DNA of 64,000 nt, taken from Spirogloea muscicola. Taxonomy: Eukaryota > Streptophyta > Zygnematophyceae > Spirogloeales > Spirogloeaceae. A program made the translations under genes and the position numbers. The notes beneath the pieces were generated by a model. The model saw nothing but the letters and a program-made list of their open reading frames with translations, searched no databases and was not told where the DNA came from. The stretch spans positions 442,027 to 506,026 of the forward strand of contig WELB01000010.1 of NCBI GenBank assembly GCA_009602725.1. The letters run 5' to 3'. Positions 17,351 through 63,792 of the stretch are shown here, piece after piece (position 1 is the stretch's first letter; each line of letters opens with the position of its first letter).

Positions 17351-17432
17351 CTTTCTTTGGCTATGGACATTGTCCATTCTTTTTGGGGTTGGCTTTGCCA
17401 GCCCCTCTTCTTTATGGGCGAGCTCTTCTACA
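17351..17432 (+). repeat. LINE tail hairpin repeat, family A (variant with GGTTGGCTTTGCCAGCC)
   Basis: Carries the tail CATTGTCCATTCTTTTTGG, then GGTTGGCTTTGCCAGCC, then ATGGGCGAGC. Other copies of this variant are at about 56594-56685 (plus) and 44206-44280 (minus). The two halves of the core can pair as a small stem. Confidence 0.75.
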
Positions 17433-17644
17433 ATGCAGCCACGCGAGTCGAGGTTCTCGCGGAATAGTGAGTCTGCGCCGTCCGCTACGCTGTCGCGAGA
17501 CTTCCCATCGGTGGCCGATTGATGTCAATTCGACAAGGCATGTGAGGTGGCTACACACACGTGGACATCTGGGGCACGTCAACTATCAGTTTAACTTTGG
17601 GAAAACTCACGAAAACGGCACCTCCAGCTCAGCTCCGGTCAGGA

Positions 17645-17830
17645 AAGCTGCGTATCTGCCGCTGAGCCGTAGATCTGGTATAAGAGGGGCAGGCACCATC
17701 CTGCCGCCCAAAGCGCTCGAAAAGTCAAGAAGAAGGCGCATCTGCCGCCGGGCCGAAGTCTGGCATCGGCGGCGGGCTGACCTCATCCTACCGCCCGAGC
17801 CGCTCAAAGAAGCCCGAAGAGAAGCCGAAA
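17645..17830 (+). repeat. Two-unit diverged tandem duplication, unit about 90 bases
   Basis: Unit 1 starts near 17648 (GCGTATCTGCCGCTGAGCCG) and unit 2 near 17738 (GCGCATCTGCCGCCGGGCCG). Both then contain CATCCTRCCGCCC and end in GCTCRAARAAG-type sequence. The similarity is clear but imperfect. No function is apparent. Confidence 0.6.
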
Positions 17831-17869
17831 AGCCCTATCCGATGCCCGCTTCGATGCGTGTGACCCACA

Positions 17870-18015
17870 TTAACGAGTGATTGGGGGTACCGGCCAGGCT
17901 TGCGGCGGGTAAGGTAGGTAGTGGGAGAATGATTGATTCAAGCTTACACTGGCCTTGGGGATCAAGGGTGGAGGGGGAACCAAAATGGGCCAAAAAGCCC
18001 GTTCTAACAAAACAA
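17870..18015 (-). repeat. Dispersed repeat shared with 29175-29320
   Basis: Read on the minus strand this gives a run of GGCCCATTTTGGTTCCCC, then AGTGTA, then CCCACTACCTACC, closely paralleling the plus strand at 29175-29320 (GGCCCATTTGGGTTCCCC ... CCACTACCTACC). It is likely a further retroelement remnant. Confidence 0.55.
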
Positions 18016-18094
18016 TTCCATTCTTTCTGACTGAGGAGAAGCGAGCGGAGAGCTGGGACCGAGCACTTCGACTCTGTCCAGTCTCTTCCCTTCA

Positions 18095-18200
18095 GCAGAT
18101 TCGCCGCCGCCGCCGCCGCCGCCGTCGCTGCTGTCGTCGTCGCTGCCGCTCTTGCCGCCGCCGTCGTCGCTGCCGCTGCCGCGCCGCCGCCGCCACCGCT
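18095..18200 (+). repeat. GCC/GTC trinucleotide microsatellite
   Basis: A run of GCC interleaved with GTC and CTG triplets over about 100 bases. Open frames on both strands here (polyarginine, polyalanine) are by-products of the repeat. Flanking sequence has no recognisable gene. Confidence 0.8.
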
Positions 18201-18464
18201 GATTAACCAGCGGGCATCGAGCGCGCCACCCGGACGTGCCAAGAAGGCACGGGCAGGCGAACTGGACCAGACTGCTGCTAAAGAGCCTGCTACTGACGAA
18301 CCTCGTTGACCGGTACGTAAACCGGCACGTTGGCAAGGAACACTTGTTCTTGCTCGACTTGACGCTCCGAACATAGTCTCGGAAGCCGTCTATTTTGTGG
18401 TACTCACATCAGTACTTTGTGCGGTGGTTATATTGAGTGCATCCTTGCAAACCTCCGTACTAAG

Positions 18465-18645: not shown

Positions 18646-18649
18646 TGGA

Positions 18650-20135
18650 TCTGGTTCATTGCATTGCTTGGTTGATTGCTTGGTGTCTCCACCGACTTAC
18701 CACTAATCTGAAATCATCCATCACAAGGTCGAGTTATCTTATCATGCCGTTTCTAGGCTGTCTATCTGTACATGTTCCTGATTCCAAACAAAGGACTACC
18801 TCATTTTCTCGCTTTTCACTTCCATTTACAATGTGTTGCGTTGCCGGCCTCTGACGTCTCACCTGTATTCCATACATATCTGCCATATCGACCTGCCGAT
18901 CACTACTGTGTGGCACGACAACGCCCCCCCAAAGCCGCCGCCTCCGCCGCGGCTGCGCTCGCGCACCATGGCTTCCGCGAGCCTCACGGCCATGACCCCG
19001 CCCGCCTGTGCTCGCATTGCACCAGCGCCTGCTCCCTATTGACACCAATATATATGGCACGCAAGAACACTTCACTGCGCTCATGCAGATAGATGTGATA
19101 CACAGCACATTGCGAGGTCCTTGCTGAGCACCATATAAGGACCCAAGAGCTGAGTATGACTGTCTGTCCACTTGCACAGGAGCTAGAGGACTGGTGGAGG
19201 ACGGTTCTCGTTGTTGGAGCGCATTCTGCTGGAAATTGGTGATAGTGCCCAAGGTCGCTGATAACTGCCCACGCGACAATGGAGTAGGGCAGAGTGCCGG
19301 CATGTCCTGAGGTCCGTCCTTCACAGGTTGCCGGCTAGCTTTGTCGTGGTGGCCGCTCAACAGACGGATGGGTCACCCGTACCGAAGGGGGCGGCACGCT
19401 CACAGGCTGCAGGTCGTTAGTAGGGCGCGTGCTGGCACCACCTTCCGGAGCCGAGGAGCTTGCGTGCCCCTCGCAGGCAATAGGCAGGCATGGGGGGGTG
19501 CAAAGAAGGACTCTCTGAGGAGGCGATGGCTGTGAAAGGGAAGAAGAGAAGGAAGCACAATTGCCACGGGCGAAGGCCTCAAAGGGCCAGCCTAAATACG
19601 ACAATGTCCAGAGAGGAGAGGGCAGGCCACGAAACATTGGAGAAAGGTCGGGGGTTGGAGCAGGCACGGGGTGCCTTGTCTGGGGCATGGCTACTGTCCG
19701 ATGCCAGGCACACGTCTCAGTCTCCGCGAGTGAACGGAGAGTTGCGTTAGATCGAGAAAAGAAAGGACGCTTCCAGGAGAAGGCGGTGGCTGTGAAAGGC
19801 CAGCCCAGTAAAAGAGTAAACGAAGTCTGAAGGGTCCAGAGAAAAGCGCTAGAGCACAAGGGATCAAACAGCTACGAAGCACTTAGTGACCCCTCTGAGC
19901 AGCCGCAGGTCGGAGAAACTAATCTCCGGGTAGCGGGGAAGACTCATCCAGAAGAGCGCGATGGCAATAATTGGCCAGCCCAGAAAAAGAACGAAAGAAA
20001 GATATAAGGGGCCAGAAAAGCGCTAGGCACACGGCGACTCTAAGTGGCCACTGGGTGCCTGGTATCCCCTACTGAGCAGCTACAAAGAAACCAGTCTCTG
20101 GGTAGCGGGAAAACGTGTGTAATAAGAGATGGGGA
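18650..20135. other. Intergenic, retroelement tail debris
   Basis: No conserved gene is visible. Minus-strand copies of the hairpin core (GGCTGTGAAAGGCCAGCCC near 19790; related sequences near 19530, 19580 and 19970) and CTACGAAGCACTNAGTGACC-type blocks near 19875 belong to the 3' tails of the LINE families described elsewhere. A possible TATA-like ATATAAGG lies near 19133 without an obvious downstream gene. Confidence 0.5.
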
Positions 20136-20470: not shown

Positions 20471-20656
20471 TCGCGCCGCGGGCCGAGTCTCCGTATCTTC
20501 CGCCCGTCACCCCTACTCCCCGAAACACCGAAACCCCCACCCGGACGCCGCCCCGCGCCGCCTGCAAGCCGCCGCCGCCGCCTGCAGCGCGCGCGCTCGG
20601 TGGCCTGGCCGCGTCGCAGCCAGCCCGGCGTTCGGAGGGCGCGCCGCTTCTCCCTC

Positions 20657-20716
20657 CGTATGCACCTGGCTGGCTTTCACAACCGCTCGTTTACTATCGG
20701 CAGCCGCATTCTTCGT
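20657..20716 (+). repeat. LINE family D tail (CTGGCTGGCTTTCACAACCGCTC)
   Basis: Matches the dispersed TATGCACCTGGCTGG...CCGCTC...ATCGGCAGCCGCATTC tail. It lies about 180 bases upstream of the receptor-kinase start codon, so it may be in that gene's leader or promoter. Confidence 0.65.
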
Positions 20717-27980: not shown

Positions 27981-27983
27981 CTT

Positions 27984-28890
27984 CGGAAAGAAGAAAGTGC
28001 TCGCCCATTGAGAATAGGGGCTGCAAAAACCAGCCCGAAATATAATGAATAGAGTACGAGAAGGGGGCCAGGGGAAGCGCTAAGAAACAGAAACAAAGCA
28101 GCTACGAATCACTCAGTAACCTCTGCTAAGCAGCCGCAGGTCGGAGATGCTAGGCTCGTTGAAGTGGGTCCCCTGGCCAGAGCCAGAAGAAAGGGCTCGC
28201 CCATTGAGGATAGGGGCTGGACAAGCCAGCCCAAAAAAGAATGAACAAAGAACGAGAAGGGGGCCAGAGGAAGCCAGAGGAAGCGCTAAGAAACCAAAGC
28301 ACACAAAGAAAGCCAGAGGCAGCAGCGAGGGCTCGGCCGGCACGAAGGTGCAACGCGCGGGCCATAGACCTCTGCAGCGAGACGGCCAGGCGCATTCGAT
28401 ACACTTGCGCCAGCGACCCGGCTGCAGGAAAGTCGACCGGCTCCCCATGGAAGCGACGGGCGATGGTGTGGCGGGCGAGCTGGGTGAGCAGCTCGAGCCA
28501 CCGAGCGCCCAGCGCCCCATGGGTATCAATGGCCAAAGGGAAGAACTCGTCTTCCCGCGGATGGTCTGCGCACTTCAGCTCCTTAGCCCGAGCAGCGCAG
28601 GCGACCGCATACCCAGCCTTTGTGGCACATTGAGCTGGGTGTGAGCGGTCGTAGGCATCAGTGTTCACCACGTCCAGGAGAAGACGTGGCCCGCCGGCCT
28701 GTCGGGTGGCCACCAGGTCAACACGCCGGGCGTGGAGACCGTTGGCCCTTTGCTGGATCGGCATGATGCCGGAGTGCTCCGCTGCCACGGAGAAGCCAGC
28801 CTCCAAAAGGATGCCATGCATCACATCGCGGAGGCGGTGGGCCGCTGTCCGCTCGGAAAGCCTTGGCGTATACACGCGAGCGAATCTCAT
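27984..28890 (-). mobile_element. 5'-truncated RLE-type LINE (family A), endonuclease end with duplicated 3' tail
   Basis: The minus-strand frame 28890-28150 retains the restriction-like endonuclease region: HARRVDLVATRQAGGPRLLL, then DVV, then KAGYAVACAARAKELK, then YRMRLAVSLQRS and LHLRAGRALAAASG. At about 28320 it passes into the 3' tail with its GGGCTGGCTTGTCCAGCCC hairpin. A second coda (GTCCCC...AGCCTAGCATCTCCGACCTG) and a second hairpin tail follow at 28186-27984. The 5' side breaks near 28865. It is closely related to the copy at 36300-33926, which shares the doubled tail. Confidence 0.85.
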
Positions 28891-29417: not shown

Positions 29418-29612
29418 ACCCACTTCCACGAGCCTAGCATCTCCGTCCTGCGGCTGCTTAGCAGAGGTTGCTGAGTGATTCGTAGCTGCTTTGTTTCTCT
29501 GTGTGCTTGTTTTCCTTCGCGCTTCCCCTGGCCCCCTTCTCGTTCTCTGTTCATTCTTTTTTTGGGCTGGCTTTTCCAGCCCCTATTCTTCATGGGCGAG
29601 CACTTTCTTCTA
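29418..29612 (+). mobile_element. LINE family A 3' end (coda plus hairpin tail)
   Basis: Starts at the coda ACCCACTTCCACGAGCCTAG (encoding the SISVLRLLSRG-like end), then GTAGCTGCTTTGTTTCTCTG, then GGGCTGGCTTTTCCAGCCCC and ATGGGCGAGCACTTTCTTCT. It is the opposite orientation of the same tail at 27984-28186, heavily 5'-truncated. Confidence 0.8.
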
Positions 29613-33925: not shown

Positions 33926-36330
33926 GAGAAAGTGCTCGCCCATTGAGAATAGGGGCTGGAAAAGCCAGCCCAAGAAAGAATCAACAAAGGACGAGAAGGA
34001 GGCCAGGTAAGCGCTAAGAAAACAAGCACACAAAGAAACAAAGCAGCTACGGATCACTCAGTGACCTCTGCTAAGCAGCCCCAGGTCAGAGACGCTAGGC
34101 TCCTGGAAGTGGGTCCCCCTGCCAGAGCCAGAGGCAGCAGCGAGGGCTCTGCCCTTCAGATGAAGAAAGGGCTCGCCCATTGAGGATAGGGGCTGGACAA
34201 GCCAGCCCAAAAAAGAATGAACAAAGAACGAGAAGGGGGCCAGAGGAAGCCAGAGGAAGCGCTAAGAAACCAAAGCACACAAAGAAAGAAAGCAGCTACA
34301 AATTACTCAGTAACCCCTGCTAAGCAGCCGCAAATCAGAGAGGCTAGGGTCCTGGAAGTGGGTCCCCTGGACAGAGCCAGAGGCAGCAGCGAGGGCTCTC
34401 CCGGCACGAAGGTGCAGCGCACGGGCCATGGACCTCTGCAGCGAGACGGCCAAGCGCATGCGATACACTTGCGCCAGCGACCCGGCTGCAGGAAAGTCTA
34501 CCGGTTCACCATGGAAGCGACGGGCGATTGCGTGGCGGGCGAGCTGGTTAAGTAGCTCAAGCCACCGAGCGCCCAGTGCCCCATGGATGTCAATTGCCAA
34601 CGGGAAGAACTCGTCTTCCGGTGGATGGTCGGCGTACTTGATCTCTTTTGCCCGAGCGGCGCAGGCGACCGCATACCCAGCCTTGGTGGCAGACTGGGCT
34701 GGGTGGGAGCGGTCAAATGCGTCGGTAGTCACCACATCCAGAAGCAGACGTGGCCCGCCGGCCTGTGGGGTGGCCACCAGGTCGACGCGACGAGCGTGGA
34801 GACCGTCGGCCCTGGCCTGGAGCGGCATGACGCCGGAGTGCTCCGCTGCCACCGCGAAGCCAGCCTCCACCAGGATGCTGTGCATCGCGTCCCGGAGGCG
34901 GTCGTGGGCCGCCGTCCTCTCGCCGCCATGGGAACAGCGCAGGACGTGAGCAGCCAGCTCGCCAGGCTTGGCCCCTCGCTCGCCACACTGGCATTGACGC
35001 ACGCCCTGGAGGCATGGAGGCGGCAGCCCCAGGAGCCGGTGGACGGCAGTGCGAAACACCTCATCTGGGAGGGTCAGGGCGTCAGTGATGGGGAGTGCCT
35101 GGAGCCACGCCGCTGCCCCCGGGGAGGAGGCCGAATGTAGTCTCGCGCGCCCGCGCAGGTCAGCCTCAGGAAGCTGCAGCACGGCGGTGGTGTAGGCGGC
35201 CTTGTCGACGACGGCCGCGAAGCGCGCTTGGACGCGCAGGTCAGCGGTGTGCGCGAGGTGCGCAAAGGAGACCGCCTGGCCGGCCATGTCGGGGTGCGCC
35301 GCGAGCAGCTCCTGGTGGGCGGTGCGAAGCGCCACCTGGAACGGCAGCGCGCCTTTGTCCACCTCCACCACCGCCTGCTCCAGTGCACGCCGGCCATGGA
35401 CCATGAAGCGCTGAGCCACGGAGGCGGCAGTCTGCGCCCAGCTGCCGAGGTATGCAGCCCGGCATGAGCGGACGAGCGGGCGCAGGCCGAGACCCCCGTG
35501 GCTGATGGGTAGCGCCGCCTGGTGGATAGCGGCTGGCGACTGGGGGAAGCCCTGGTGGCGGACCAGGGCCGCCAAGCTCGCCACCATGCCCGCGTCGAAA
35601 GTCGCGTACGCCGCCAATGCCTCTGGGGACGGCGGGGTGGCCCGCGTCAAGTACTGGGGCCGCTGCCCGATGGCCTTGGTCAGCATGGCCAAGGACAGCT
35701 GCATATCCTCCAGCTCGGGGAGCCGGGCCGCGGGCTGAAGGTGCTCCGCGAGGCGGGCTCGCAGCTGCCCCTCCACGAAGGCTGGCGTGCCGATGGGGAC
35801 TCCCAGGAGGGTGAAGCCGTCTGCCGGAGTCCGGCAGCCCGGGGGCAGCGCCAGGGTGGGTAGGATCACGCCAGGGGACCAAGCCGCGCACTTCGCCGGC
35901 CGGATGGTCAGGCCGAGGGTGGCCAGCTGCTGCGTGAAAGTAACGAAGGCCGCCGCCACGTCTTCCGGAGGGCCGACGATGGTGGTGTCGTCCGCGTAGG
36001 TGGGAAGAAGGACTCCTGGGTGGGCCGCAGCGGTAGCCTGCAGAGCCCGGTTGTGCGCGAGCGCAAAGAAGAAGCCGGCGAGGGGGTCCCCTTGCCGCGT
36101 GCCCGAGCGGGACTGCAGGACCTCCACCTGATCACCCCCTGTCCACCAGAGGAGGTCGCTGGGCTGACCGTACCCCAAGCGGAAAAAGGGGACCAGGGAG
36201 GGGAAGGAGGCCCGGAGCTCCTCCGCAATGCAGGCGCGCTCCACGGTGTTGAAGGCGTTTGCCACGTCGACGGCAAGCACCAGCCAGCTCGGATGGGTCT
36301 CCCTCGTTGCGCTTCCGGCGCCGTGCGTGG
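33926..36330 (-). mobile_element. RLE-type non-LTR retrotransposon, family A, with duplicated 3' tail
   Basis: Minus-strand element. Its 657-codon RT-endonuclease frame ends at 34307. A 3' tail with hairpin follows (34245-34158), then a second coda (ACCCACTTCCAGGAGCCTAG near 34115) and a second hairpin tail (about 34080-33926). The 5' side is lost near 36330 inside the RT domain, before motif A. The doubled tail matches that of 28890-27984. Confidence 0.85.
34307..36280 (-). CDS. Reverse transcriptase / restriction-like endonuclease ORF of a non-LTR element (5'-truncated)
   Basis: A 657-codon uninterrupted frame. RT motif A is AVDVANAFNTVE at the start, motif B SGTRQGDPLAGFFFALAHNR (about residues 57-76), motif C YADDT (about residue 95, minus 35999-35985). 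After the thumb, a knuckle CQCGERGAKPGELAAHVLRC (C-x-C-x12-H-x3-C) precedes the endonuclease stretch ARRVDLVATPQAGGPRLLLD, VVTTDAF and KAGYAVACAARAKEIK. This order, RT then CCHC-like knuckle then RLE, is that of R2/CRE/NeSL-group LINEs, which nick a target and prime cDNA on it. The nominal GTG start is an artefact; the frame stays open to about 36380, where sequence is unlike RT. The lack of stops suggests recent insertion, but the missing RT N-terminus makes it inactive. Confidence 0.9.
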   Translation of the reverse strand: MLAVDVANAFNTVERACIAEELRASFPSLVPFFRLGYGQPSDLLWWTGGDQVEVLQSRSGTRQGDPLAGFFFALAHNRALQATAAAHPGVLLPTYADDTTIVGPPEDVAAAFVTFTQQLATLGLTIRPAKCAAWSPGVILPTLALPPGCRTPADGFTLLGVPIGTPAFVEGQLRARLAEHLQPAARLPELEDMQLSLAMLTKAIGQRPQYLTRATPPSPEALAAYATFDAGMVASLAALVRHQGFPQSPAAIHQAALPISHGGLGLRPLVRSCRAAYLGSWAQTAASVAQRFMVHGRRALEQAVVEVDKGALPFQVALRTAHQELLAAHPDMAGQAVSFAHLAHTADLRVQARFAAVVDKAAYTTAVLQLPEADLRGRARLHSASSPGAAAWLQALPITDALTLPDEVFRTAVHRLLGLPPPCLQGVRQCQCGERGAKPGELAAHVLRCSHGGERTAAHDRLRDAMHSILVEAGFAVAAEHSGVMPLQARADGLHARRVDLVATPQAGGPRLLLDVVTTDAFDRSHPAQSATKAGYAVACAARAKEIKYADHPPEDEFFPLAIDIHGALGARWLELLNQLARHAIARRFHGEPVDFPAAGSLAQVYRMRLAVSLQRSMARALHLRAGRALAAASGSVQGTHFQDPSLSDLRLLSRGY

Positions 36331-37110
36331 GCTTTGGCCCTTGTAGTCGCTTCGTTCTTGTTGTCCTCCGACTTTAATGAGCAAATTTGATGAGCGGTCG
36401 CCTCGACCCCCGGTCTTGCAGATGTCCGCCTTCCCCGCTCGATCCACACCCAAAACTGTGTGATTCAGCCGCAGAGATTCACTTGTGTCAAGCCAGGTCG
36501 GCTGTCTGAGGCAGACCGACATGAATAAGCGGCGGTCGACTCACCTTCTCAATCTTTTCGGGCTGGCTGCTCACAGCCCTTGCTCTTCCTTCGGAAGAGC
36601 CACCTTCTTTCTGTTCATTCTTTTTTGCGCTGGCTTTTCCAGCCCCTATTCTCAATGGGCGAGCACTTTCTTCTTTCTCACAACCGGGCGGATCGGAGGG
36701 GCACACATGTCGGCCGCACCGACAGGTCGAGTAGGGACGGGCCCGGCCCGCCCTCCCGTCTGGCTAGCCTGTGGCTCCGCTAGCATGGTCATGAACACCG
36801 TCTGTAAGAACCTGGATGGCTTCTACAGCCGCTCTTCCACCATCAGCTGCATTCCCTCCCTGCCGCCCGCCGGCAGGCCACTGCCGCCGCTCGGCGTTGT
36901 GCGGGATGCCAATTCCCCGCTGGCACAACCTTGACACCTCACCGCCGCCACTACCGCCAGCAGCGCCAAGCGGGGCCGCTGGGGCGGCTCCGAGGCGCAG
37001 GCGGGAGTCGGCCTTCGGGCGCTGCTGCTCCTCGACGACGCCGGCGGTCGCGCCGCCAACGACGCCGGTGGGCGCCGCGCCGCCGACCCGCATTGTGGGC
37101 GCCCGCCTGG
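36331..37110. other. Intergenic with LINE tails at 36560-36850
   Basis: A family A hairpin tail lies at 36605-36680 (plus; GCTGGCTTTTCCAGCCCCTA, ATGGGCGAGC). A family D tail lies at about 36765-36850 (GCCTGTGGCTCCGC ... CTACAGCCGCTCTTCC ... ATCAGC). GC-rich alanine/proline frames around 36820-37090 are not convincing as a gene. Confidence 0.6.
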
Positions 37111-42990: not shown

Positions 42991-44690
42991 CTTACATTTT
43001 ACGACTTGCAAGTGGGAAAAGGCTTCTTTGAGCAGCCATCCTTTAGTGCTTTCCAGGGTGGTCTACAGCTTCCGACTCGTATCACTTTGTTCTCGTTTCA
43101 GACTTTGTTCTTTCTTCGGAAAGTAAGCTTCTAAGAGGGGCGAGGGGTGTGCGGCGCAAAAAAGAAAGGACGAATTTTCCTTTGTGGGCTGGCTTTTCAC
43201 AGTCTTCGCTTCCTCTCGGGAAAGGTGCTTCTCTTCCTCAGTCATGCCCCTATAATGATATCGTTTCTGAATTTTATCACTAACACTGCATTGTCAGGTC
43301 GGCTTGACCTCCCTTCTTTTCATGCGCACCGCGCCACCAGATTTACGAGATCTTTGGGGAAGAGCCTCAGGATGGAAGGGCGAAGAAGCTCCGTCAGAAT
43401 GGGGGCAATGGCTGTCACAGGCCAGCCCAAGAAGGAATGGCAAGATGAGATAACAAGTAGGCAAGATGAAAATACAATCCTGAACGAATTGATTGCTGGG
43501 AAAGGCCAGCCCAGAAAGAAGATTGTACGGAAGAGAGAAAGCGCGCGGAGCGCATGAAATGAAAGAGAGGCCAATACAAGCCAATACATTGTTTAGGCAG
43601 AGTCTAGGGCAAACCAAACAAGGCTACAGAATACGGAGACCTAAAGTAAGGTGCCTAAGGTGACATTAGTACCCACGGGGGAGCACAAACAAATCTGACA
43701 AGCTAAATGAGAAGCTGGAGCGCCGCCACGAAAGCTGGAGGCCTGACTTAGAGCGCGCCCTGCACGTTGAGAAGAACCAATGCTTGCGAGCGCTGCAAAC
43801 GAAGCGAGAGCCGCATTCTATGACATGCAACTAAGGCCTGCGGAATGCTGGAGTGGCCCAAACTGCCCCCCGAATTCGACGACGCGCATCAACCAGCCGG
43901 GCCAGATGCTGGATCAGGGAGGACCATTTCACGTAGTAGCCTCCGTAGACAGAAGAATGAGAGGAGCTCCGAGCTACTCTCTTCCAGCCACCGCCCTCTG
44001 CTGGAAGCGCTAGCCTTTGCCTCCGTCATGGACGCTTGTATGCATCTGGCTGGCGGTTTACAGCCGATTCTTTAATATCAGCAGCTGCAAGTCTTTTGCT
44101 GGAAGCGCCCACTACCGGAAGCCTCTAATTTTCCACGGGTTCTAGAGGACCCCCTTAGGCAAACACACGAGATTCTCCCCTTCGGCAGCTCATTGCCTCG
44201 TTACCAAAGAAGAAGGTGCTCGCCCATTGAGAAGAGGGGCTAGCAAAGCCAACCCAAAAAGAATGGACAATGTTCAAAGCCAAAGAAATAGGTGCTGAAA
44301 AAGGACTACACTACAAAGTGCAAGACGGTGCAGAGGGAGATGCAGATTACTGCCAGGACTTTGTAAGGCTCGGGTTGGCCTCGCTTTCGTTTCATGTGCA
44401 CCGGCGCGCCTTTCTTCAGCAGGTTACGCACTGCTACCTTATTAGCCCCCCCTTCCTACAGTTGCGTCATACAAAGCGAAACCCAACTCTCTTTGCTCTA
44501 GCTGAACAGCAGTTTTGGCTCGCATTGGCCTCCCTTTCACTCCATACACATCTGCGCCCGCGCCCGTCAAACCCTATTCATTCCCGTAGCAGGACAAGCA
44601 CCGTCCACAGTGCGGCCCCAGAAGTTGTACCTGCTTCAACCGGGTGGGGGGTTGGGAGGATCTAGCGGGCCGAAGCGGAGCGCGGCCTAG
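42991..44690. other. Repeat-rich intergenic region
   Basis: Contains a minus-strand hairpin core near 43416-43435 and 43497-43512 (GGCTGTCACAGGCCAGCCC; GGGAAAGGCCAGCCC), a family D tail at about 44037-44090 (plus), and a family A hairpin tail at 44206-44280 (minus; CTCGCCCATTGAGAAGAGGG). Short frames do not resemble proteins. No gene is supported. Confidence 0.6.
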
Positions 44691-46570: not shown

Positions 46571-48830
46571 CGGAGGCGGCGGCGGCGGCGGCGGAGGTGC
46601 CGCGACGGGCGGCGCGGCGGCGGGCGGGGCTGGCGCGGCGGGTGTGGCGGAGCAAGATGGGGGGAGCACGAAGCCTCCTCCCCCCGTGGCCCCCCCCCCC
46701 GGCCACATGCGCGCCACCCGGGACTTGGCCCCTGGCACATCGCAAGGGCCGCTTTCCCCCTTCTCGTACTCTGTTCATTCTTTTTCGGGCTGGTTGTTCC
46801 AGCCCCTATTCTCAATGGGCGAGCACTTTCTTCTTTCCCGCGCAAGGGGGTAGGCCCAGTCGGGCCCCACCCGGGGCAGGGCGCGCGGGCCCCCCCCCCG
46901 CCGAAAAAACCCCCCGCCACATCTGGCGGCTGCAGTTGGAAGGGGCTGAGAGGGGTGGATCCAGCTGTCAGTAAGAAGCGGCTTTTGCATCCGTCGGAAG
47001 AGCTTCTTCCTTGCTCCCCAAGTCACCTTGTCGGACGTGTATGTGCTCACCCGTGGGTACTCATGTCACACTGTTTCGTCAACCACCTTAGCATAGGGCT
47101 TCGTTTCATGTAGCCCCAAACTTTGCACTACTTTTGCCTGAACGATGAATTGGCTGGCATTGGCCGCCCTTGCCATCCATGCTCAGCGCGCGCCTTCTTT
47201 CTTTGGACATTGTTCATCCTTTCTTGGACTGGCTTTCACAGCCCTCGCCCCCTGTGGACTAGCTGGAAGAGCCTCTTAATGTGCTGCTGCTTCTTCTTCA
47301 CAGCTTGTTTCTGCGGGGTCACCAACCAATGTGTGCCGTATCCACCACTCCATCTTGCTCCAGCATTTTCAGGCATTCGTGGTGCGTTAGCAGACAGCCC
47401 GCGCCTTGGCTGCCGCCTCTGGGCCTCAGCATGGCGCCTCTTCTCCCAGCTACCAGCCACTTACCGACCTTCTGACTACGTATCACTGAGCACACAAACG
47501 TAGTGGCCATCTAAGTGGCTGTTGTGCGGCATAGTGGCCAATTGCGTGGCTTGCATTTCCCGGCCCCTTCGAACCTTGTTCAATCTCTTGGGGCTGGCCT
47601 TTCACATCCAGCGACCCCTTATATAAAAGCTTCTACTCTTTCTTTTGAAGCGCAGGGCGTGACTTGTGGGAGTGAAACGAGGCGGAGAAGCAGAGGACAC
47701 CTACTGCAGACGGTGTGGGCAGATACCTCCTCCATGCAAAACCTGTAGATGTGGTGGAACCCAGTCAAGCTCCCTGCTCAACCTTGCCTGTGCTTGAGTC
47801 AAGGTCAAGTATCACATCCCCACTCTGTTACATATATGCCTGATACACATGCTAAGCTGCCATACTGTGCATCATATGCCTGACAACATGCTAAGCTGCC
47901 AAGCAGAGGCCAATGCTTCGCAGAAGAAGCACACTGAACGGGGCGATGGCTGTGAAAGGCCAGCTCAGAGAAACTGCTCCCCCAGAAGACGGAAGGGCGC
48001 GCGGTGGCATGAAATGAGAGGAAGGCCAAGAAAAGCCAGAACTGTGTAAAGTAACAACTGTGCATGAGAGTGGACTGGGTGACAGACTGCACTAGGCTCG
48101 GACTCCTATCCTTCTTCTATCTTCGGCGCAACCGGCCCGCCAGAAGCGCTGGCGCTGGAATAGCGCCGCCCACCAGACTGGCGGATGGCTTGGCGGGCCG
48201 CCACATGGGGGCCAACCCTCCCCGCCTGCTGCCGACACTTCCGCCGCCCACGGGGGCCCGCCGACCCTCGTCGGAAGCACGCCACGTTGGCAAGCCGCAC
48301 GTGCCGCGGGAAGCCGCGCGCAATGATTCGGCAGGGTGGCCACGCCACGCCACGTGGCCTACCGGCACTCGTCACGTGGCCGCCCGGGCGCGGGCCCGTG
48401 GGCCACGGCCGTGCGGCCGCGTTCGGGGGTCACGTGGCGGGGGCCCACGCGCTGGCGCGTCAGGCTCAAGGTTTTGGCTGGGGCGGGGGCTTTTGACCAA
48501 CCGGGGTTTAAGGGGGCGGGGGGGGCTTTTTGCGTCCTTTTGTTGATTTCTTTTGGGCTGGCTTTTCCAGCCCCTATTCTCAATGGGCGAGCACTTTCTT
48601 CTTTTTGCCTGACGCTGGCCCGCCCACCCCCCACGGCAGCTGCCGTCACCTGGCCCAGGGGGATCGGCGGCCCAAACGTGAGCAGAAGTAAGAAGAAAGA
48701 AGATCGTAGGAAGAAGAAAGACGAAAGAAGAAAGAAGGAAGAAGAAAGAGCTCCTCCACTGTAAGAAAGAAGAATGTTAGCCGCTCTCATCATATCAGCA
48801 ACAGCACTCGCTTGTTCTTGGCCATCTTCC
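46571..48830. other. Intergenic with hairpin tails and a G-box cluster
   Basis: Family A hairpin tails lie at 46752-46838 and 48540-48606 (plus). Related hairpin cores lie near 47225-47245 and 47574-47592, and a minus-strand one near 47951-47968. 48298-48436 holds four CACGTG sites (listed separately). A purine-rich GAAGAAAG stretch fills 48680-48780. No gene recognised. Confidence 0.6.
48298..48436. promoter_or_regulatory. Cluster of four CACGTG (G-box) sites
   Basis: CACGTG occurs at 48298, 48351, 48373 and 48431, three of them as CACGTGGC. G-boxes bind bHLH and bZIP factors. The surrounding DNA is very GC-rich and I find no gene start next to it, so a regulatory role is only a possibility. 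Confidence 0.4.
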
Positions 48831-51660
48831 CTCTTTTGGCGTCGGAGGCCGCAAGACTTTCCAAGACAGGCTGGCTAAATTTACAAGTGGAAAATGGGAT
48901 GAGTTTGCTCAGCAGCGTTCAGCAGCTGCTCAGGTCACGCTCTCGCAGCGGCGGGCGCGCAATGGATCAGTCAACCAGCCCTCTCAACAGTTCACAGCTG
49001 GCAATCTAGCGCGGGCAAGACGCTTTGGCAGGGCAGGAGAACTTTCCCGGGCCGCTCAGGCCCTTTGTCCTGACCCCCTGGCTACTACCAACGACGCCAC
49101 AGAGGCTACCTTGCGACAGCTCCACCCCCCTCCACCACACCCACTTGAGCCCTGGGCTGGCGAGCTCCCCAACCCTCTTGACCTATCGGCAGAGGCGCTC
49201 CGTGTGGCCCTGACCAAAGCCCCCCGGATGGTGTCCAGAGGCCCTTCTGGGTGGCAATTTTAGCACCTACACGACCTATACTATTCCTTGATGGGGATGA
49301 GAGGAGCTTTCCCTGTTCCTGTCCACCTGCCGGCACATCGCCAGGGCTGCCATTCCACCACGCATTGCCGACGCCTTAAACTCCAGCCACCTGCTAGCCC
49401 TTGCTAAGCCAACAGGCGGTGTTAGACCCATTGCGATGACGGAGGTTGTCATGCGGCGGGTATCAAAGGCCGTGTGCAGCAAGCTGAAACCCCAGCTGAC
49501 CAGCCATCTATCACCCCACCAATTTGGTGCTGGCATGTCCTGCGGGGCGGAGGCCCTCGTCCACGGCATCCGTGCCGCTCTCGACGTGGACCCTTCATGA
49601 TGGTCCTTGGGCTGGATATCAGTAACGCCTTTAACACAGTGGAGTGGAGCGCAGCATCATCATGGAGGAGCTGCGCGATCACTTCCCTTCCCTTATACCC
49701 TATTTCCTCATGGCCTATGGCCGCCCAGGGCGGCTGCTGTGGCAAGCCGGAGAGTCGTGGAAGACGCTGTGGTCATCTTCTGGCACACGCCAGGGGGATC
49801 CCCTTAGCCCAAACCTGTTTGCGTTGGCACATTGCCGGGCTATTCGGCGCACTCAGAGCCAACACCCAGACCTCCTCTTCCCTTCCTACGCGGATGACAC
49901 ATACATCATTGGACCTCCAGCTGAAGTCATGGCGGCTTACCCCTTGCTCGTTCGCGAATTGGACCTGATGGGCCTGCGGGTTTGCCCGTCCGAGAGTGGT
50001 CCCCACGCGGTCTCCCTGCCAACCTTCAGCTCCCCCACGGCTGTTAGACCCCTGCCAATGGGCTGGCCTTCCTCAAGGTCCCCTTCGGTATACCAGCTCA
50101 CGTGGCGGTGGACTTGCGGGAACGCCTTCACAATTACCTCGCCCCCCTCCCTTCCCTTCCCCTCCTTGGGGACACGCAGCTGGCGTTGGTCATCCTCACC
50201 CGCTGCATCGGCCAACGGGCTTGCTACCTGCAACGGACAGTCGCCCCCTTGGGCATGGTGGCGGAGCTCTACAAGGAATATGATAACTCCATTCTGCAGT
50301 CCCTGGCATCCTTGCTAGATTCTTCATCTAGATTCTTCTTTTCCCTCAGCTTCAGCTTCCCTCCAGGCCTCCCTCCCTACTCGCATGGGCGGCCCTGGCT
50401 GCTGGTCGTTGGAGCAGACGGCGCAAGCAGCCTTCCTGGGCTGCTGGCGCCAGATCGCCTCCCTGCTCCCCATGCGCTTCCCTTGCCTCCACGACCCTGT
50501 ACGCAATGTGGAGGAAGGCTCCTTCCCCTTCCAAGCGGATCTGAGGAGCATCCGCGACTCAGCCATCAGCTCTTTCCCCTCTCTCCAACCCCTACTCACA
50601 CCATTCTCTGCCCTCGCCCAAGCTTCTGATAGAGGAGCACAATCCAGACTGTTTACGGCAGTGGAAGACGAACGCCGCAGAAGGTTGAGTGAGGCTGCCA
50701 GAGATTCAGAACAATCCAAGGAGCTTGGCAAGACTTACTTCTCTGGCCACACCTGGTGCCACTGACTGGATCACCTCTCCCCCCGTCGCCAACGCCTTCA
50801 GCATCAGCTCCGAGGCCTTTCGGACGTCACTTCAACTCTTCCTCGGCCTCCCACCTAACTGCCTGATTAGGGTGCGCCAGTGCGAGTGCGGCTTCCGTGC
50901 AGAGGGTGCTGAGCTCGCCACTCACATGCTGAGATGCCCCACTGGACCAGAAGTGGTGGGCATTCACATCCTCCATCGCGATGCCCTGGCGGGCTTGATG
51001 CGCGACGCCGGCTCTCGTGCGGTCGTGGAAGTCAACAATATCATGCCTATCACCACGGACGCCCAGGGACGTCATCATCGCCGCACACTTGACATTGTGG
51101 GCGTGCAACCTGGTGAGGGACCACGGGCCCTGGTCGACGTTGTTGTTACGGAGGCACATAAAGGCCCAGCATCGACACACATCGCTGGGCACGCAGTGGG
51201 CGGTGCAGAACAAAGAAAATTGCGGGACTACTCCGATTACCCCCAATGCGATCAGCTCCTGCCAGCGGCAATCGATATCTTTGGCTGTCTGGGTCCTCGT
51301 TTCCACACTCTCCTTCAAAACATTGCCAATCTAGGCTACACTCGACGTGCAGATGTGTTGCCGGCTGAGATGGGCTCGCCAGCTGCATATCTGTCGCTCT
51401 TGCGACGACGAGTTTCGCCCTTTTTGCAGCGTGCTCAGGCTAGTGCCTTGCACCAGAAAGCTGGACGAGCTTTAGTTGGTGGCAGAAGGGCTCCGTTTCT
51501 GGCATCTAGTATTCATGCATCAGTTAGTGACCTGTATGTTTTGACCCGTGGTTATTGAGCGGGTCAATCTGCTGTAGGTTATGTAGATCTTAAGATGTGA
51601 TTGCCTTTGTACTTGGCCATTTGGCCTACATTTGTTTCTAATACACGGAACTGGCTTCTT
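48830..51660 (+). mobile_element. RLE-type non-LTR retrotransposon, family C, most complete copy (inactivated)
   Basis: Spread over several frames on the plus strand. A pre-RT region (RARRFGRAGELSRAAQALCP; ALTKAPRMVSRGPSGWQF) is followed by a TAG where FEHL-type sequence is expected (near 49261). Then come the RT finger region (KPTGGVRPIAMTEVVMRRVS), motif A (LGLDISNAFNTVEW), motif B (SGTRQGDPLSPNLFALAHCR), motif C (YADDTYIIG, from 49887), thumb, knuckle and endonuclease. The last 289-codon frame (50689-51558) is intact and ends in the coda DLYVLTRGY. The tail with TTGGCCATTTGGCC ends near 51640. At least three frameshifts and one stop make it dead. Confidence 0.87.
50689..51558 (+). pseudogene. 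Knuckle and restriction-like endonuclease part of family C LINE protein
   Basis: A 289-codon frame. A zinc-knuckle-like CECGFRAEGAELATHMLRC is followed by HHRRTLDIVGVQPGEGPRAL, then VDVVVTEAHKGP. Conserved D/D/K-type residues fit an RLE core that nicks the target site. The C-terminal LSLLRRRVSPFLQRAQASAL and HQKAGRALVGG are shared with every truncated family C coda in the window. It is cut off from its RT by frameshifts upstream. Confidence 0.8.
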
Positions 51661-53399
51661 CAGTGGCTGTGAGAGGCCAGCCCAGGAGGAGTGCACAGGA
51701 CACAGGGGGAAGTGCGCGCCCTGCGCATGAAACCGCGAGGGAGCCAATTCAAGCGGATCGTGAAGTCCATCTTGAACAAGTTCTCGCAGGGCAACTTATC
51801 ATACGTACATTGTCCTTGTCAAAACAGCTGGAGCAGGCTCATCTTCGTGCTGCTTTGCACTAATTTGGTTCGCTCTGCCTGTCACATCACTCCTGTGCTA
51901 AGGGTGGCTGATGTGACTGGAGAAGCTGGACAGTCACATCACTCCCATGAAACAGCCCTTCCAAATTGACAGCAATGGCAGTGAGAAGCCAGTCCAAAGA
52001 AATGGACAAGGTCCTATGGACCCTGGTATCCTGCTTATGGCGCCATCCGGCCCTTTCAGAACTTGTGCACTCTCCAGCTGGCCTCTCACAGCCAATACCA
52101 TAAACCGGAAGAGCTGTTCCTATGCAAGGGGTCCACTCTTTCTGGGCTGGCCTTTCCCAGCCCTTGTCTTCTGAGAGAGCTCTTTCTTTTGAAGGGGGGA
52201 CTCCAGTAGCCACGATTGAGCAAATATACAATCGATAGGCTAATGTGGGGAGCTGGAGCACCGCCACGGAAGTCAGTGGCCTGGATTAGGTGCGCAATGC
52301 GCAACGTAGATAGAGACAAAGCCACCATCACACCTGGCTCGCACCCGGCTCGCACCCGATTCGTGCCCAGCTTGCGCCAGCTTCTGGCGGGCAGGGTCGT
52401 GCCCTGCTCGCAATACAATATGGCCATGGGGCTGAGGACCTCTCAAGCACCTGTGACGAGCGTTTGGTGCACCCCCACCTGGTGTCCTTATCTTTGTGCA
52501 CGCTCATTGGGTTGGCCAGTTGCACCACGCTCTTGTTGGAAGAGCTTCTCTCTTTTCAAATGCTCGAGGTCGACTCAAATTGCAGTCAAGCCATTCAGGT
52601 AGTCCGGGCTGAGCCCTTTGTTACTCTTGGACGTCTTTCCACCAGCTAGCTACTCGGATCTGCATCTCCTGTCTAGAGGTTACTGAGCGTTCCCTGGCTG
52701 ATGTCTTAGTCCTAGTCGTTCGCACTCAAGCTCCCTCAGACCCTGTCCATTCTTTTGGGCTGGCCTTCCCCAGCCACCAGTCAATCTGGCGGCGCTTTCC
52801 CTTTGTTACTTGTGCATCGCCTGTCCTTCTGGCCGTTCCAGATTCTCTCGAATGGTTCCTTGTATCATAAAGACGACGTGGAGCTTCAACAGAGGGGCCA
52901 CGTCTTTGAGTGCCACCCCCATTGGAAAACGTCCTCCTCTGCACTTTCATCCTCCCTAGATCTCCTGAGCAGGGCACAACAAACCCCAGCCCCGGGCCTT
53001 CACAATCCCCTACCAGTCATGCAGTATCTCCTTATGGCCAAGATGACAACCTGGGCACATTTAGCTTGACACAGCTCGCCAAGATTGAAGAACATGCGAC
53101 TGAGTGCCCACATTCCAAGATTGTCAAATCTACCTCTAATTTAACTGCGCTCAATATGTTTTTAGCTCAAATTGTTCTGATGGAGTCATATAAGCCCCAG
53201 TCGTTGCTAAGTCCCCTGTTGCAGGCATTCTTAATGTTCAATTACCCTGCGCTTGACATACTCACTACAAATTTTGTACAGATGTACAGCTATCTCCTGC
53301 CCCTAAGTAGGACCTGTGTGTGCTGCCTATCCAGGCCACCAAACATTGCCACTATCAGATGAGCATACCTAAACCTCGAATAAGAAGGACCTGTCCGCC
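51661..53399. other. Intergenic; hairpin cores and one unexplained ORF
   Basis: Hairpin cores near 51665 (GGCTGTGAGAGGCCAGCCC), 52077, 52143 (GGGCTGGCCTTTCCCAGCCC) and 52757 are tail debris. A plus-strand frame at 52910-53362 (150 codons, containing ALNMFLAQIVLMESYKPQSL) converges on the UPF0114 gene. I do not recognise it and cannot tell whether it is a gene. Confidence 0.5.
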
Positions 53400-55904: not shown

Positions 55905-55905
55905 N

Positions 55906-56250
55906 ACAAATGTAGACCAAATGGCCAAGTACAAAGGCAAGCACATGTAAAGATGTACATAACCTACAGCAGATTGACCCGCTCAGTAACCACGGGTCAA
56001 AACTTCAAGGTCACTAATCGATGCATGAATACTAGATGCCCGAAACGGAGCCCTTCTGCCACCAACTAGAGCTCGCCCAGCTTTCTGGTGCAAGGCACTA
56101 GCCTGAGCACGCTGCAAACAGGCCGAAACTCGTCGTCGCAAGAGCGACAGATATGCAGCTGGCAAGCCCATCTCAGCCGGAAACACATCTGCACGTCGAG
56201 TGTAGCCTAGATTGGCAATGTTTTGAAGGAGAGTGTTAAAAGAGCGGCTG
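55906..56250 (-). mobile_element. 5'-truncated LINE, family C
   Basis: Minus-strand frame with LLQNIANLGYTRRADVFPAE, MGLPAAYLSLLRRRVSACLQ and GRALVGGRRAPF, ending LEVLTRGY, then the family C tail up to the N at 55905. The tail end abuts the N directly. The 5' side joins a family D tail near 56235. Confidence 0.85.
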
Positions 56251-56540
56251 TGAAAGCCAGCCAGATGCATACAGGTATATCGTGACGGAGCCACAGGCTA
56301 GGCTGCGAGGGCGCCCTTAGGGGCACTTCATACAGGGTCGGTCGGTTGCGGCCGAGAGGTACGTGTCGCGCGTTGTATGGATGTTTGGGGTCAACAACGC
56401 AGCCACCTCCAGGCCAAGACAAGGCAATCTGCGACCGACCGGCCCGGTATGAAGTGGCCCTTGGTACCCCCTTGTCAGCAGTAGGAAGTCAGATGAGCTG
56501 AGGGGAAGAAGGCGCGCAGGTGCGCATGAATTTGAAAGGG
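56235..56540 (-). mobile_element. LINE family D coda and tail (inverted)
   Basis: Minus-strand LLPLSSSDFLLLTRGYQGPL near 56515-56455. A spacer follows, then GCCTGTGGCTCCGTCACG and TGCATCTGGCTGGCTTTCAC with AGCCGCTCTTTTAA. The same coda-to-tail arrangement is found at 42720-42990. Confidence 0.75.
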
Positions 56541-56593
56541 AGGCCAATTCTAGCCTTGCAAATGTCCTGTTAACTGTAGTGTCGTCCTTTTTC

Positions 56594-56685
56594 AGCACCT
56601 CTTTCTTTGGCTTTGAACATTGTCCATTCTTTTTGGGTTGGCTTTGCCAGCCCCTCTTCTCAATGGGCGAGCACCTTCTTTGTTA
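56594..56685 (+). repeat. LINE tail hairpin repeat, family A variant
   Basis: CATTGTCCATTCTTTTTGGG, then GGTTGGCTTTGCCAGCCC, then ATGGGCGAGCACCTTC. Closest to the copies at 17351-17432 and 44206-44280. Confidence 0.8.
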
Positions 56686-61255: not shown

Positions 61256-61420
61256 TGCCGCCGCCGCGGCAAGCGGCACTCGCCCCGCCGTCACCTCCAC
61301 TGCCGCGCCCTCGCAGCCATCTCACCTGTCGGCACGCGGGCACTCCGTGAGCCTAGGAGCGGCTCGGATACCGCCGCCGTCCGGAGCCCGTCGCTGGAGG
61401 CAGGGCCTCGGCGCTGGCCA

Positions 61421-61454
<34 letters not shown>

Positions 61455-61560
61455 AGGCGCGCGGCGGCGGCGGCGGCGGAGGCGGCGGCGGCGGGCGCGA
61501 GGACGCCTCGCCTCCAGCTGGTATCTGGTATGGCAGCTGACGCGGCGCCGGTGACGCTGA
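61256..61560. repeat. GC-rich promoter with facing GCC and GGC arrays
   Basis: About 61420-61455 is (CCG)n and 61462-61498 is (GGC)n on the same strand, an inverted triplet array able to fold into a long hairpin. It lies just upstream of the Yippee-like gene and could be part of its leader or promoter. Confidence 0.65.
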
Positions 61561-63004
61561 CGCAGGGAGGAGACCGGGCCGCGCCTACGCGACCCCCTTT
61601 TAAACCACGACTTAGTGATCTTTATTTGTGGTCCTCTCGGGCTCGTCACCGTGTGCGCCGCGTGCCTGAATCGCGTCAACGAGTGGCTTCACCGGTTTCC
61701 GCAACGTGGATCAGTGCTGCTCAGTGCACGGTACAGCCTCGAAGATGGATCCAGACTTCTGATATGCTCGGATGTTACAGCGGTCCATTAAATTGCACTT
61801 GCTGGGCTCGGGAAGATTCATGCGGTGCACGTGACCTTTACCAAGGACTGCCGTAGTTGTAGTTGGACTAATCACTACAGCAGTCGCCTGCTTCTCTCGT
61901 CTACTTTGCCACAACTTGCTCGAAATTGCAGTCGTCGGATGTGCACAATGTACCGGCCACTCTGCTTGCTGTGCTGCCTGCAGCTGGAAATTTTTGTGAG
62001 CATCTTGCGTGAACCTCATTGCTGCAACCCCTCTTTCATCTGTGGTAGCAGCTACTCGACTCTTCGAGGAAGCCAGTTCTCGTCCCTTGGGCTGGCATTG
62101 GCCCAGCCACCGTCCAAAGAGCCACAACCATCATATATTGCGCCTGACTGTATCTTGTTGTCATCTCGATGCAATTCTTTCTACTGCAAGTACCCTCGCA
62201 CTGCAGTTCGCCACAGGTGCAAGCCTGCCCCCCACGCGACTTGCACCTGAAAGTGGTTGACACCCTTGGCTGTTTACAGCAATGTTTACAGCAATGTAAA
62301 CAATAAATTCCAACTATGGAGGAGGCACAGCACTGTTTGCTTGGCCTGCACTGTGCTTATCAGGCGGGCCGAGTCACCTGCTGTGGAAGGAATAGAAGGA
62401 ATGGAGAGAAGAGGCATGCAGGATGAGCACCAGCCGCAAGTATTTGAACGCGATGCATGGCAAGAATACGATACCAGAGCAGCGTGCAGACAAAGTAGCC
62501 AAGGCTAAGCAGCCTTCCTTGGTCGTCTGTGCTGGCCTCGTGATGGTGGCCTCAAAGATCATGTGGATCCTTGATGTCAACAACTCGATCTTGCAAGCAT
62601 TTGAGCAGAGCAGTCCACATGCAACCTGCGCTATCCGCCAAGGCCATGAAATGCTAAAGGCCGCATGGTCAGGGAGTTATTGCGCAGGGTCATCACTCAT
62701 ATGCCCTGCCAGTTTGTCCAGGACAGGGTCAGAAAGACTCAAGACATGGTAAAAGGTCACACACCTGCAACATACATTGCGCATGGCTACTGCCACTGTC
62801 TACTGCAATACAAGGCTGGAACCGATTTTCAGTTTCGGTCAAGAACCGCTTCACACAGCCAGGCACAGCATGTCAGACGCAAAGGTTTCTTAGTAGCAGT
62901 AAGATGCCAACTCTTAAAAGACAACAAGCTGACCTGACGCAAGGTATGCACATGACAAGCTGACCAGACGCCAAGTCATGAAGACGATAAACTGACCTTT
63001 CTGT
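61561..63004. other. Intergenic, nothing recognised
   Basis: Short frames on both strands without recognisable domains. A duplicated GTTTACAGCAAT occurs at about 62271 and 62283. A GGGCTGGCATTGGCCCAGCC hairpin near 62090 is another member of the tail-hairpin family. Confidence 0.5.
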
Positions 63005-63715
63005 CTAGCTTGGCTTGGTCGCTTCGAGGCCATCTACTTGACGACCCTCGGACTGGAGATTATCACCCTCCATGCCATTGCTTGAAAGCGGCTGCTGGCC
63101 AGCCTTGAACCTATCCTTGAAGCCAGGTTGCCTCTGCAGCCAGTACATGTGCGCCTGCAAGCAAACAGTGTCAGCACGACGCCAACGGCGATACATACAG
63201 AAGGTCTCTAGCGCATGAATCCAACTCGAATATCAATTCGAGACTCGTCTGCATATGTAGTCCCGAAGGCAAATTTGACGACGAAAGACTCGCATCACTT
63301 ATCATTGCCGGCCGACAACAGAGAGCACGATGATGCATGAATTGCGCAAAGCCGTCAGCTGACCTGCAGAGCACCCGCCCAGCCAAGCAACAGCGTGGCG
63401 GCTAGCAGCCGCCGGTCTATCATACGTGACGCGTCAAGCTTTGCGCGATCGGCGTCGGACCGAAGCTGGCCAGACGCCGCGGGCTGCTGCCTCTTTGTCA
63501 AGTGGATGCCTGCTCGCAAGGAGGCGAGCTGGTCGACTGTGTCATCCGACGTCGCGGAGGTCGCGCGCAGAAGCACGACGAAGTGGAGCTCGCCGAGCTG
63601 TGTGGAGCCCGCCACCAGCGATGCGGCGCCAGGAACGGGACTAGGATGAGCGAAGGCCAGGGCGGCCGGCGGCCGCGGCGGCAGCGGTGGTTCCGACTGG
63701 CAGCCTGAGGTGCGA
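63005..63715 (-). CDS. Unrecognised two-exon protein
   Basis: Minus strand. The upstream exon, open from at least 63715 to 63364, reads GELHFVVLLRATSATSDDTV, GIHLTKRQQPAASGQLRSDA and a hydrophobic segment RRLLAATLLLGWAGALQ. The donor GT at 63363 and acceptor at 63155 join in phase to exon 63154-63005: AHMYWLQRQPGFKDRFKAGQ, then a hydrophilic end GLEATKPS. The hydrophobic segment may be a membrane anchor. The true start is uncertain because a family D LINE tail (63755-63790) interrupts the upstream side; sequence beyond it (minus strand, 63940-63800: MLATVLGLPFQVGTCVPSRD) may be the original N-terminus. No family recognised. Confidence 0.45.
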
Positions 63716-63754
63716 TGCTTCGGAGACGAAGGAAAGCGGCTGCTGATACTAAGA

Positions 63755-63792
63755 GAGCGGCTGTGGAAGGCAGCCAGATGCATACAGGACGA
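63755..63792 (-). repeat. LINE family D tail
   Basis: Minus-strand CTGTATGCATCTGGCTGCCT then CCACAGCCGCTCTCTTAGTATCAGCAGCCG. It is the same tail as at 42928, 44037 and 56270, here inside or just upstream of an open frame. Confidence 0.75.

Follow-up and report, generated by a model that had tools for sequence, protein, structure and literature searches.

Features of the locus

The DNA analysed here, called the window throughout, is a stretch of 64,000 nucleotides (nt) from the alga Spirogloea muscicola (C10:442027-506026, on contig WELB01000010.1, of a 153-Mb genome in 471 contigs; window G+C content 55.8%), and it holds copies of long interspersed nuclear elements (LINEs) whose 3' tails carry a small hairpin built on GGCTGG and CAGCC. 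This hairpin, found over and over, marks the 3' ends of several related families of LINE retrotransposons. Nine LINE tails (A, A2, D, F, FH, G1, G2, Y and Y2) formed a library that was searched against the window and other sampled loci, and the features below were placed by this library unless another basis is given in brackets (ORF, open reading frame; RT, reverse transcriptase; PDB, Protein Data Bank).

34307..36373, minus strand: part of a family A LINE ORF with RT and C-terminal region, ending ..SDLRLLSRGY* (Pfam RVT_1, E 4e-13; longer relatives match R2 proteins in the PDB over the RT)
34162..34312, minus: family A 3' tail below the ORF stop, hairpin at 34191-34207 (library positions 1-141 of 141, 86%)
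27990..28118, minus: family A tail as far as the stop codon, hairpin GGCTGGTTTTTGCAGCC (library positions 1-141 of 141)
28186..28311, minus: 123-nt insertion of a family A tail alone, nested in an A copy and with a target duplication of 7 nt (31 empty-site comparisons)
29471..29610, plus: family A tail as far as the stop codon
33927..34062, minus: family A tail as far as the stop codon
36546..36609, plus: G1-type tail, hairpin at 36561-36578 (tail library and hairpin pattern)
36612..36673, plus: family A tail-only copy, head-to-tail against the G1 tail (tail library and neighbour analysis)
46756..46833, plus: family A tail-only copy
48539..48601, plus: family A tail-only copy
17345..17427, plus: A2 tail-only copy with GGTTGGCTTTGCCAGCC
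44209..44338, minus: A2 tail
56575..56680, plus: A2 tail-only insertion of 104 nt, 9-nt target duplication TGTTAACTG (4 empty-site comparisons)
4957..5021, plus: family D tail
20658..20714, plus: family D tail, stem broken as ..CACAACC
42884..42978, plus: family D tail as far as the stop codon
44010..44089, plus: family D tail
56236..56317, minus: family D tail
63732..63788, minus: family D tail
9377..9413, plus: F-type tail fragment including the hairpin
9687..9730, plus: F-type tail fragment including the hairpin
19759..19848, minus: G2-type tail preceded by decayed coding sequence for a LINE-like C-terminus
41037..41122, plus: FH-type tail-only copy
43404..43439, minus: F-like hairpin tail fragment
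51661..51697, minus: F-type tail fragment facing a Y tail (tail library and neighbour analysis)
52053..52121, plus: F-type tail
52131..52188, plus: hairpin tail nearest to A2 (78%), 9 nt below the F tail on the same strand (tail library and neighbour analysis)
52681..52799, plus: FH-type tail as far as the stop codon, ..DLHLLSRGY* (tail library; read in L039, which overlaps the window)
50689..51558, plus: family Y LINE C-terminal coding region, of a family lacking the GGCTGG hairpin (C-terminus search)
51553..51647, plus: family Y tail with a GGCC..GGCC type hairpin instead (C-terminus search and tail library)

The sampled loci amount to 346 kb of the genome and were picked for LINE or hairpin content, so that frequencies in them are biased upward; four overlapping loci (L005, L006, L009 and L039) were left out of the tail-library, clustering, duplication, empty-site, junction and C-terminal identity counts. 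Within the 346 kb the library gave 476 matches, including 48 in the window, of which 41 are to GGCTGG-bearing types and seven to Y or Y2; the weakest of the 48 scores about 33 bits and some are fragments that exclude the hairpin.

Occurrence of the hairpin

In the window the pattern GGCTGGN{2,9}CAGCC has 31 matches, palindromic ones being scored on both strands, against a mean of 1.39 and a maximum of 7 in 100 dinucleotide shuffles. Genome-wide, GGGCTGGCTTTTCCAGCCC is found at 6,230 places with at most one mismatch and GGGCTGGCNNNTCACAGCC at 8,208 exact places, the reversed control giving 0 in either case, and the FH form of the hairpin occurs at 3,190 places (at most one mismatch), some of which are possibly common with the GGGCTGGCNNNTCACAGCC pattern. 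A scan of the window at Rfam gathering thresholds returned zero matches. The hairpin or something close to it lies no more than about 50 nt from each of the 22 positions listed in an earlier reading made from the DNA letters (the sequence-only reading); nine of the 22 are on the minus strand, and the stem is damaged at 20660, 36630, 52077 and 9395. The strings quoted there are idealised, being exact at only eight of the 22, namely GGGCTGGCTTTTCCAGCCC at three of eight family A sites (29564+, 33971-, 48555+), the A variant GGTTGGCTTTGCCAGCC at two of three, the family D string at one of six (56264-) and the string given for 'free-standing' copies at two of five (9711+, 51683-). Further copies lie at 36561+, 41079+, 43427-, 52145+, 52758+ and 62090+; the last has no tail-like relatives in the sampled DNA and may be unrelated to the LINE tails.

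The LINE bodies

The window ORF at 34307-36373(-) encodes a reverse transcriptase, and many of its relatives in the genome have long open frames, a large group of these with identical score. Read in translation, the long-ORF relatives show a Cys/His finger in the N-terminal part, then the RT, a C-C-H-C knuckle of variant form, and KELKY within the C-terminal region. With a profile of six proteins the best three matches in the PDB, a database poor in LINEs, are R2 proteins (E 2e-11), followed by 8c8j (7e-5) and human L1 ORF2 (about 1e-4), the RT alone being covered. LINEs of the R2/R4/NeSL/HERO/CRE group possess a C-terminal restriction-like endonuclease (RLE) with D..D and KX2KY motifs (PMC5678591), and the KELKY of the family A motif RRVDLV..LLLDVV..KELKY, whose K and Y are retained in family Y, reads as a candidate KX2KY motif, an assignment by motif reading; a Pfam search returned no match for this endonuclease-like region. 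The knuckle, with invariant C949, C951, H964 and C968, is spaced CX1CX12HX3C in place of the published CX2-3CX7-8HX4C (PMC5678591) and is at best a variant of the RLE-LINE knuckle. Since furthermore the copies are dispersed over many contigs, and not inserted site-specifically in 28S ribosomal DNA (rDNA) as is R2 proper, we name these elements R2-like and file them neither as R2 nor in the RLE group. That they are LINEs is seen from the RVT_1 body, the fixed 3' end, the 5'-truncation gradient and the target-site duplications. An AlphaFold model of the window ORF (predicted local distance difference test, pLDDT, 37) was not used.

A hairpin at a near-constant distance from the 3' end

Where coding sequence survives, the hairpin does sit just 3' of the LINE stop codon, as had been claimed from the letters, and it follows within 200 nt in 67 of 124 sampled LINE C-termini (overlapping loci included). 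In such single-ORF, R2-like LINEs it lies some 55-120 nt beyond the stop. The stop-to-hairpin distance is estimated at a median of 102 nt, with a 5-95% range of 43-214, from the 39 of 187 oriented hairpins that have a coding end within 250 nt; a further 42 have LINE coding sequence farther upstream and 106 have none within 900 nt. Eighteen of the 187 lack a tail-like partner and may be chance hairpins. The link between hairpin and LINE coding sequence is direct for A, A2, D and FH, and comes from a few decayed copies only for G1, G2 and F.

The LINE 3' end is fixed: copies are alike through the 3' untranslated region (UTR) as far as ..GAGCACTTTCTTC and divergent beyond. From the start of the hairpin to this end the library tails measure 45 nt in FH, 46 in A and A2, 47 in G1 and 48 in G2, D and F, the ends being placed where the consensus drops off, with the pyrimidine run adjusted for G2 and F, so that for these two the constancy is partly author-set. 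The notion of one hairpin core shared by several LINE families is thus borne out, in that seven tail types (A, A2, D, F, FH, G1 and G2) have the hairpin near their 3' ends at near-constant spacing, and a stem-loop near the 3' end, a trait of stringent-type LINE tails, is accordingly present here.

Such spacing at the ends of several tail types is most economically accounted for by a recognition signal, and we consider it probable that the hairpin belongs to a conserved 3'-terminal recognition signal of an R2-like LINE clade, which is often copied alone when reverse transcription aborts early. The hairpin would then be the core of a 45-48-nt module terminating single-ORF R2-like LINEs, in which hairpin and spacer are followed by a TGGnnGAGC-like motif, which differs in D, and then by a terminal pyrimidine stretch close to CTTTCTTC. 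Most likely this module would be bound by the protein of the element, whereupon target-primed reverse transcription (TPRT) would start. Judging from the truncation gradient described below, synthesis would often abort within the first few hundred nt, and early abortion of this kind would leave many genomic copies as tail alone. New copies often land in or beside older tails, and the recurrence of the hairpin in several families would reflect a common ancestor together with a signal under constraint.

The same near-fixed distance of 45-48 nt and the strict sequence conservation would also fit a hairpin that helps to form the 3' end of the LINE RNA or to terminate its transcription and takes no direct part in recognition by the RT. 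Nothing direct speaks against this, but recognition of 3' structures by LINE proteins has an established precedent (PMC4176376, PMC12222951), and we regard a mere processing signal as unlikely.

Non-coding copies look like truncated LINE tails

Among the 3'-complete A, A2, FH and D tails of the window, six of 20 reach the stop codon and the other 14 end inside the 3' UTR, the 5' break points of non-coding copies being scattered. Of 69 candidate empty-site events of at most 700 nt, 15 end at a tail 3' end (two rows being one event). A 46-nt tail-only insert at L065:2362-2407 has a 12-nt target duplication and 29 empty-site comparisons, and the clearest others are of 123 nt (31 comparisons), 120 nt (38), 57 nt (30) and 104 nt (4), the 123- and 104-nt inserts being those of the window. 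Duplications of at least 8 nt surround 19 of 111 solo tails, where 1.2 are expected.

Family A was furthermore followed genome-wide with 22-base markers at no more than one mismatch. The marker some 15-36 nt from the 3' end is found at 7,260 places, that at the stop codon at 4,161, that 135 nt before the stop (about 275 nt from the 3' end) at 1,400 and that 2,110 nt before the stop (about 2.2 kb from the 3' end) at 76. These ratios are approximate, diverged copies being undercounted at every marker and conservation, in 19 of 19 open copies, having been the basis of choice for the two coding markers only. The steady thinning from 3' to 5' is a truncation gradient, unlike the step that a short interspersed nuclear element (SINE) would give.

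The sequence-only reading had the structured 3' end parasitised by non-coding copies, which suggests SINEs. These would be independent elements with a promoter of their own which borrowed the hairpin and are moved by the LINE RT. Most sampled hairpin copies indeed lack detectable LINE coding sequence within 250 nt (39 of 187 have it), and tail sharing between SINEs and LINEs is known in other LINE clades (PMC4176376). However, no SINE body with a fixed 5' end, and no partner SINE sharing the tail such as stringent-type LINEs have in several, though not all, clades, was found in the 346-kb sample, and among 168 truncated 3'-complete tails with 150 nt of upstream sequence 28 pairs are alike across the 5' junction, pairs which, to judge by their positions, probably reflect repeated nesting or library edges. 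Given the scattered break points, the absence of a common foreign body and the family A gradient, which likewise opposes such a body, the SINE reading was rejected as highly improbable; a rare SINE could escape a LINE-rich sample of this size. The free copies that were examined resemble LINE insertions left very short by 5' truncation, not SINE parasites.

Nesting of tails

Neighbouring tails within -10 to 10 nt of each other are in tandem in 63 cases, convergent in 21 and divergent in four in the sampled loci, where chance would give 2:1:1, and the window has three tandem pairs and no convergent or divergent ones. Remnants of FH tails whose first base corresponds to library positions 85-87, within the hairpin, occur at L004:1394, L032:331 and L008:334, each directly following the 3' end of another tail, and thus mark a recurrent nesting point. 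Such repeated start points are consistent with insertion into CTTTC-like stretches, which match the end of the element itself, with a possible role for pairing.

The tandem excess could also arise if the RT jumped end to end between templates, producing head-to-tail mosaics of different families' tails within one insertion, and at L067:3580-3699 a family A tail does lie, together with a short tail fragment before it, in one outer duplication (38 comparisons). At the level of composites, however, duplications are barely if at all enriched: those of at least 6 nt number 5 of 26 against 2.4 expected and those of at least 8 nt one against 0.3, that one in a local tandem array. Furthermore, L055:387-669 reads as an A copy that is nested in an A2 tail and has a duplication (CTTCTCA, 7 nt) of its own. 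On the duplication test and the L055 empty site, template jumping was set aside as very unlikely, even though the L067 composite still fits it.

Two local arrangements may be mentioned here. Five A2 tails in the same orientation, about 100 nt apart, lie at L032:602-1114, apparently as a local tandem array. At L069 a family A tail meets a 5.8S gene directly at an N, which is probably a scaffold join and not an rDNA insertion. The 5.8S and internal transcribed spacer (ITS) region of L069 resembles that of a trebouxiophyte green alga, a likeness that has no bearing on the other results.

Conservation and folding of the stem

Of 89 usable tails of types A, A2, FH, G1 and G2, 42 were aligned (8 of 42, 8 of 13, 10 of 13, 10 of 13 and 6 of 8, respectively), chosen mostly by closeness to the library; the alignment omits the six D tails, and the filter let no F tail through. 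RNAalifold predicts the five pairs of GGCTG/CAGCC alone, the inner two of which are constant while the middle one has three U-G for C-G. The invariance of the stem suggests that its sequence is recognised along with its shape.

Several observations weigh against a recognised 3'-terminal structure. There is no covariation, the five RNAalifold pairs having 0 both-sided changes in the 42 tails, and when the stem is taken together with a ten-pair outer helix, 78.3% of cells are paired against 77.9% in shuffles, with no excess of covariation either. About half of the tail types fold no better than shuffled sequence (z-scores A -3.84, A2 -3.06, G2 -2.38, Y -2.08, G1 -1.08, Y2 -1.01, FH -0.84, window G2 variant -0.65, D -0.09 and F +0.17). 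The hairpin served to find the copies in the first place, which inflates its apparent conservation. The abundant family Y, which with 49 of 122 distinct C-termini makes up the second large cluster of these, lacks the GGCTGG hairpin altogether. Finally, an insert at L044, read as about 28 nt from two comparisons, stops short of the hairpin; this is compatible with the recognition signal because its RNA would still carry the hairpin.

Covariation in the stem had been put forward as the test of the sequence-only reading, and a lack of compensatory changes as the outcome that would speak against it. With the core pairs near-invariant, covariation cannot support the hairpin, and although no compensatory change was found, an invariant stem says little either way. 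The proposal of a structured 3' end recognised by the RT stands as regards 3'-end position and near-constant spacing, for which recognition would be the most economical reason, and fails as regards covariation and SINE parasitism.

A both-sided change, GGCCG/CGGCC, is present in the decayed copy L007, outside the 42, and being a single copy is no test. The outer helix was taken from single-sequence folds of A, A2 and G1, and gets no support from the alignment counts; its register beats slid versions (28-53% paired), but so much is to be expected, the structure having been derived from some of these very sequences. A small upstream hairpin, GGAC..GTCC or GAAC..GTTC, occurs 12 and 4 times, respectively, among the 187 copies and was dropped.

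The absence of covariation, and the fact that the families are related, would also agree with plain shared ancestry, the hairpin having been inherited by related LINEs and being functionless today. This seems quite unlikely, since hairpin and spacing persist in D though the rest of the D 3' UTR aligns poorly, and since 10 of 12 invariant columns in the aligned tails lie within the hairpin, a figure inflated by hairpin-based copy finding.

Family relationships

Over at most 160 C-terminal residues, identity to family A is 71-75% for G2 (one copy) and 60-62% for the FH-type copy at L029; the best D copy reaches 51-52%, Y2 stands at 38-39% and Y at 36-38%. Further D copies have 41-43% and 29-31%, and FH at L061 has only 25-28%, values taken to reflect decay or frame shifts. 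On the evidence of the better copies, it is the closer relatives that carry the hairpin, and the 'many bodies' on which one motif had been thought to sit are related ones, for which descent and constraint suffice. Some 43 nt from its end family Y carries GGCCATTTGGCC, with GGCC-ATTT-GGCC at a place similar to that of the GGCTGG hairpin in the others. Its copies fall in equal-score groups (603 and 505.7 bits), which suggests recent bursts of two subfamilies.

A single copy at L035:3529-3660 combines a family A ORF and early 3' UTR with an A2-type tail, possibly by tail exchange. It would be such an exchange product if, through the near-invariant 48-nt signal, LINE RNAs with any of at least seven tail types could serve each other's proteins interchangeably as substrates, in a shared pool with cross-family mobilisation and tail exchange, an idea that we consider rather unlikely.

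Relation to known systems

To our knowledge, structured 3' tails have been studied most thoroughly in vertebrate LINEs of the L2 type and in animal R2. The kind of system is already known, and the new points, as far as the literature searched shows, are the host, the constancy of the hairpin from family to family and the shortness of some insertions; open-access literature, to which the search was confined to the exclusion of subscription papers, held nothing that matched green-alga RLE non-LTR (long terminal repeat) elements or tail stem-loops of Chlorophyta SINEs or LINEs.

The stringent-type LINEs ZfL2-1, ZfL2-2 and UnaL2 likewise have a short stem-loop in the 3' tail, and R2Bm and R2Dm are also classed as stringent, as they need their 3' UTR (PMC4176376). 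ZfL2-1 and ZfL2-2 are however of the L2 clade and strict in recognising their cognate tail, whereas here one stem sequence serves several families of R2-like LINEs. In several clades the stringent LINEs are accompanied by partner SINEs (PMC4176376), whereas none was found in our 346 kb. R2Bm and R2Tg share with the present elements a single-ORF RT, and a compact structure in the R2 3' UTR RNA starts TPRT, but R2 sits in 28S rDNA and its element is pseudoknotted (R2Tg) or two-hairpin (R2Bm) (PMC12222951), while the LINEs here are dispersed and their binding is presumed. BLAG and R2NS have an R2-like protein and insertions beyond rDNA, as here, but animal hosts, and the available text of PMC7650587 does not describe for them a hairpin common to several families.

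A conserved compact tail on dispersed R2-like algal LINEs offers many natural variants of one short RNA for tests of template choice, and from tail-only insertions, as short as 46 nt and clearly flanked by target duplications, the abort points of reverse transcription in vivo could be measured.

Other observations in the window

A fragment of an HSP90 gene (Pfam E 3.9e-15) lies at 10555-11196, a host gene amid LINE copies, and a degenerate CCCTAAA-like telomere-type repeat is found at 3857-3951, internal to the contig.

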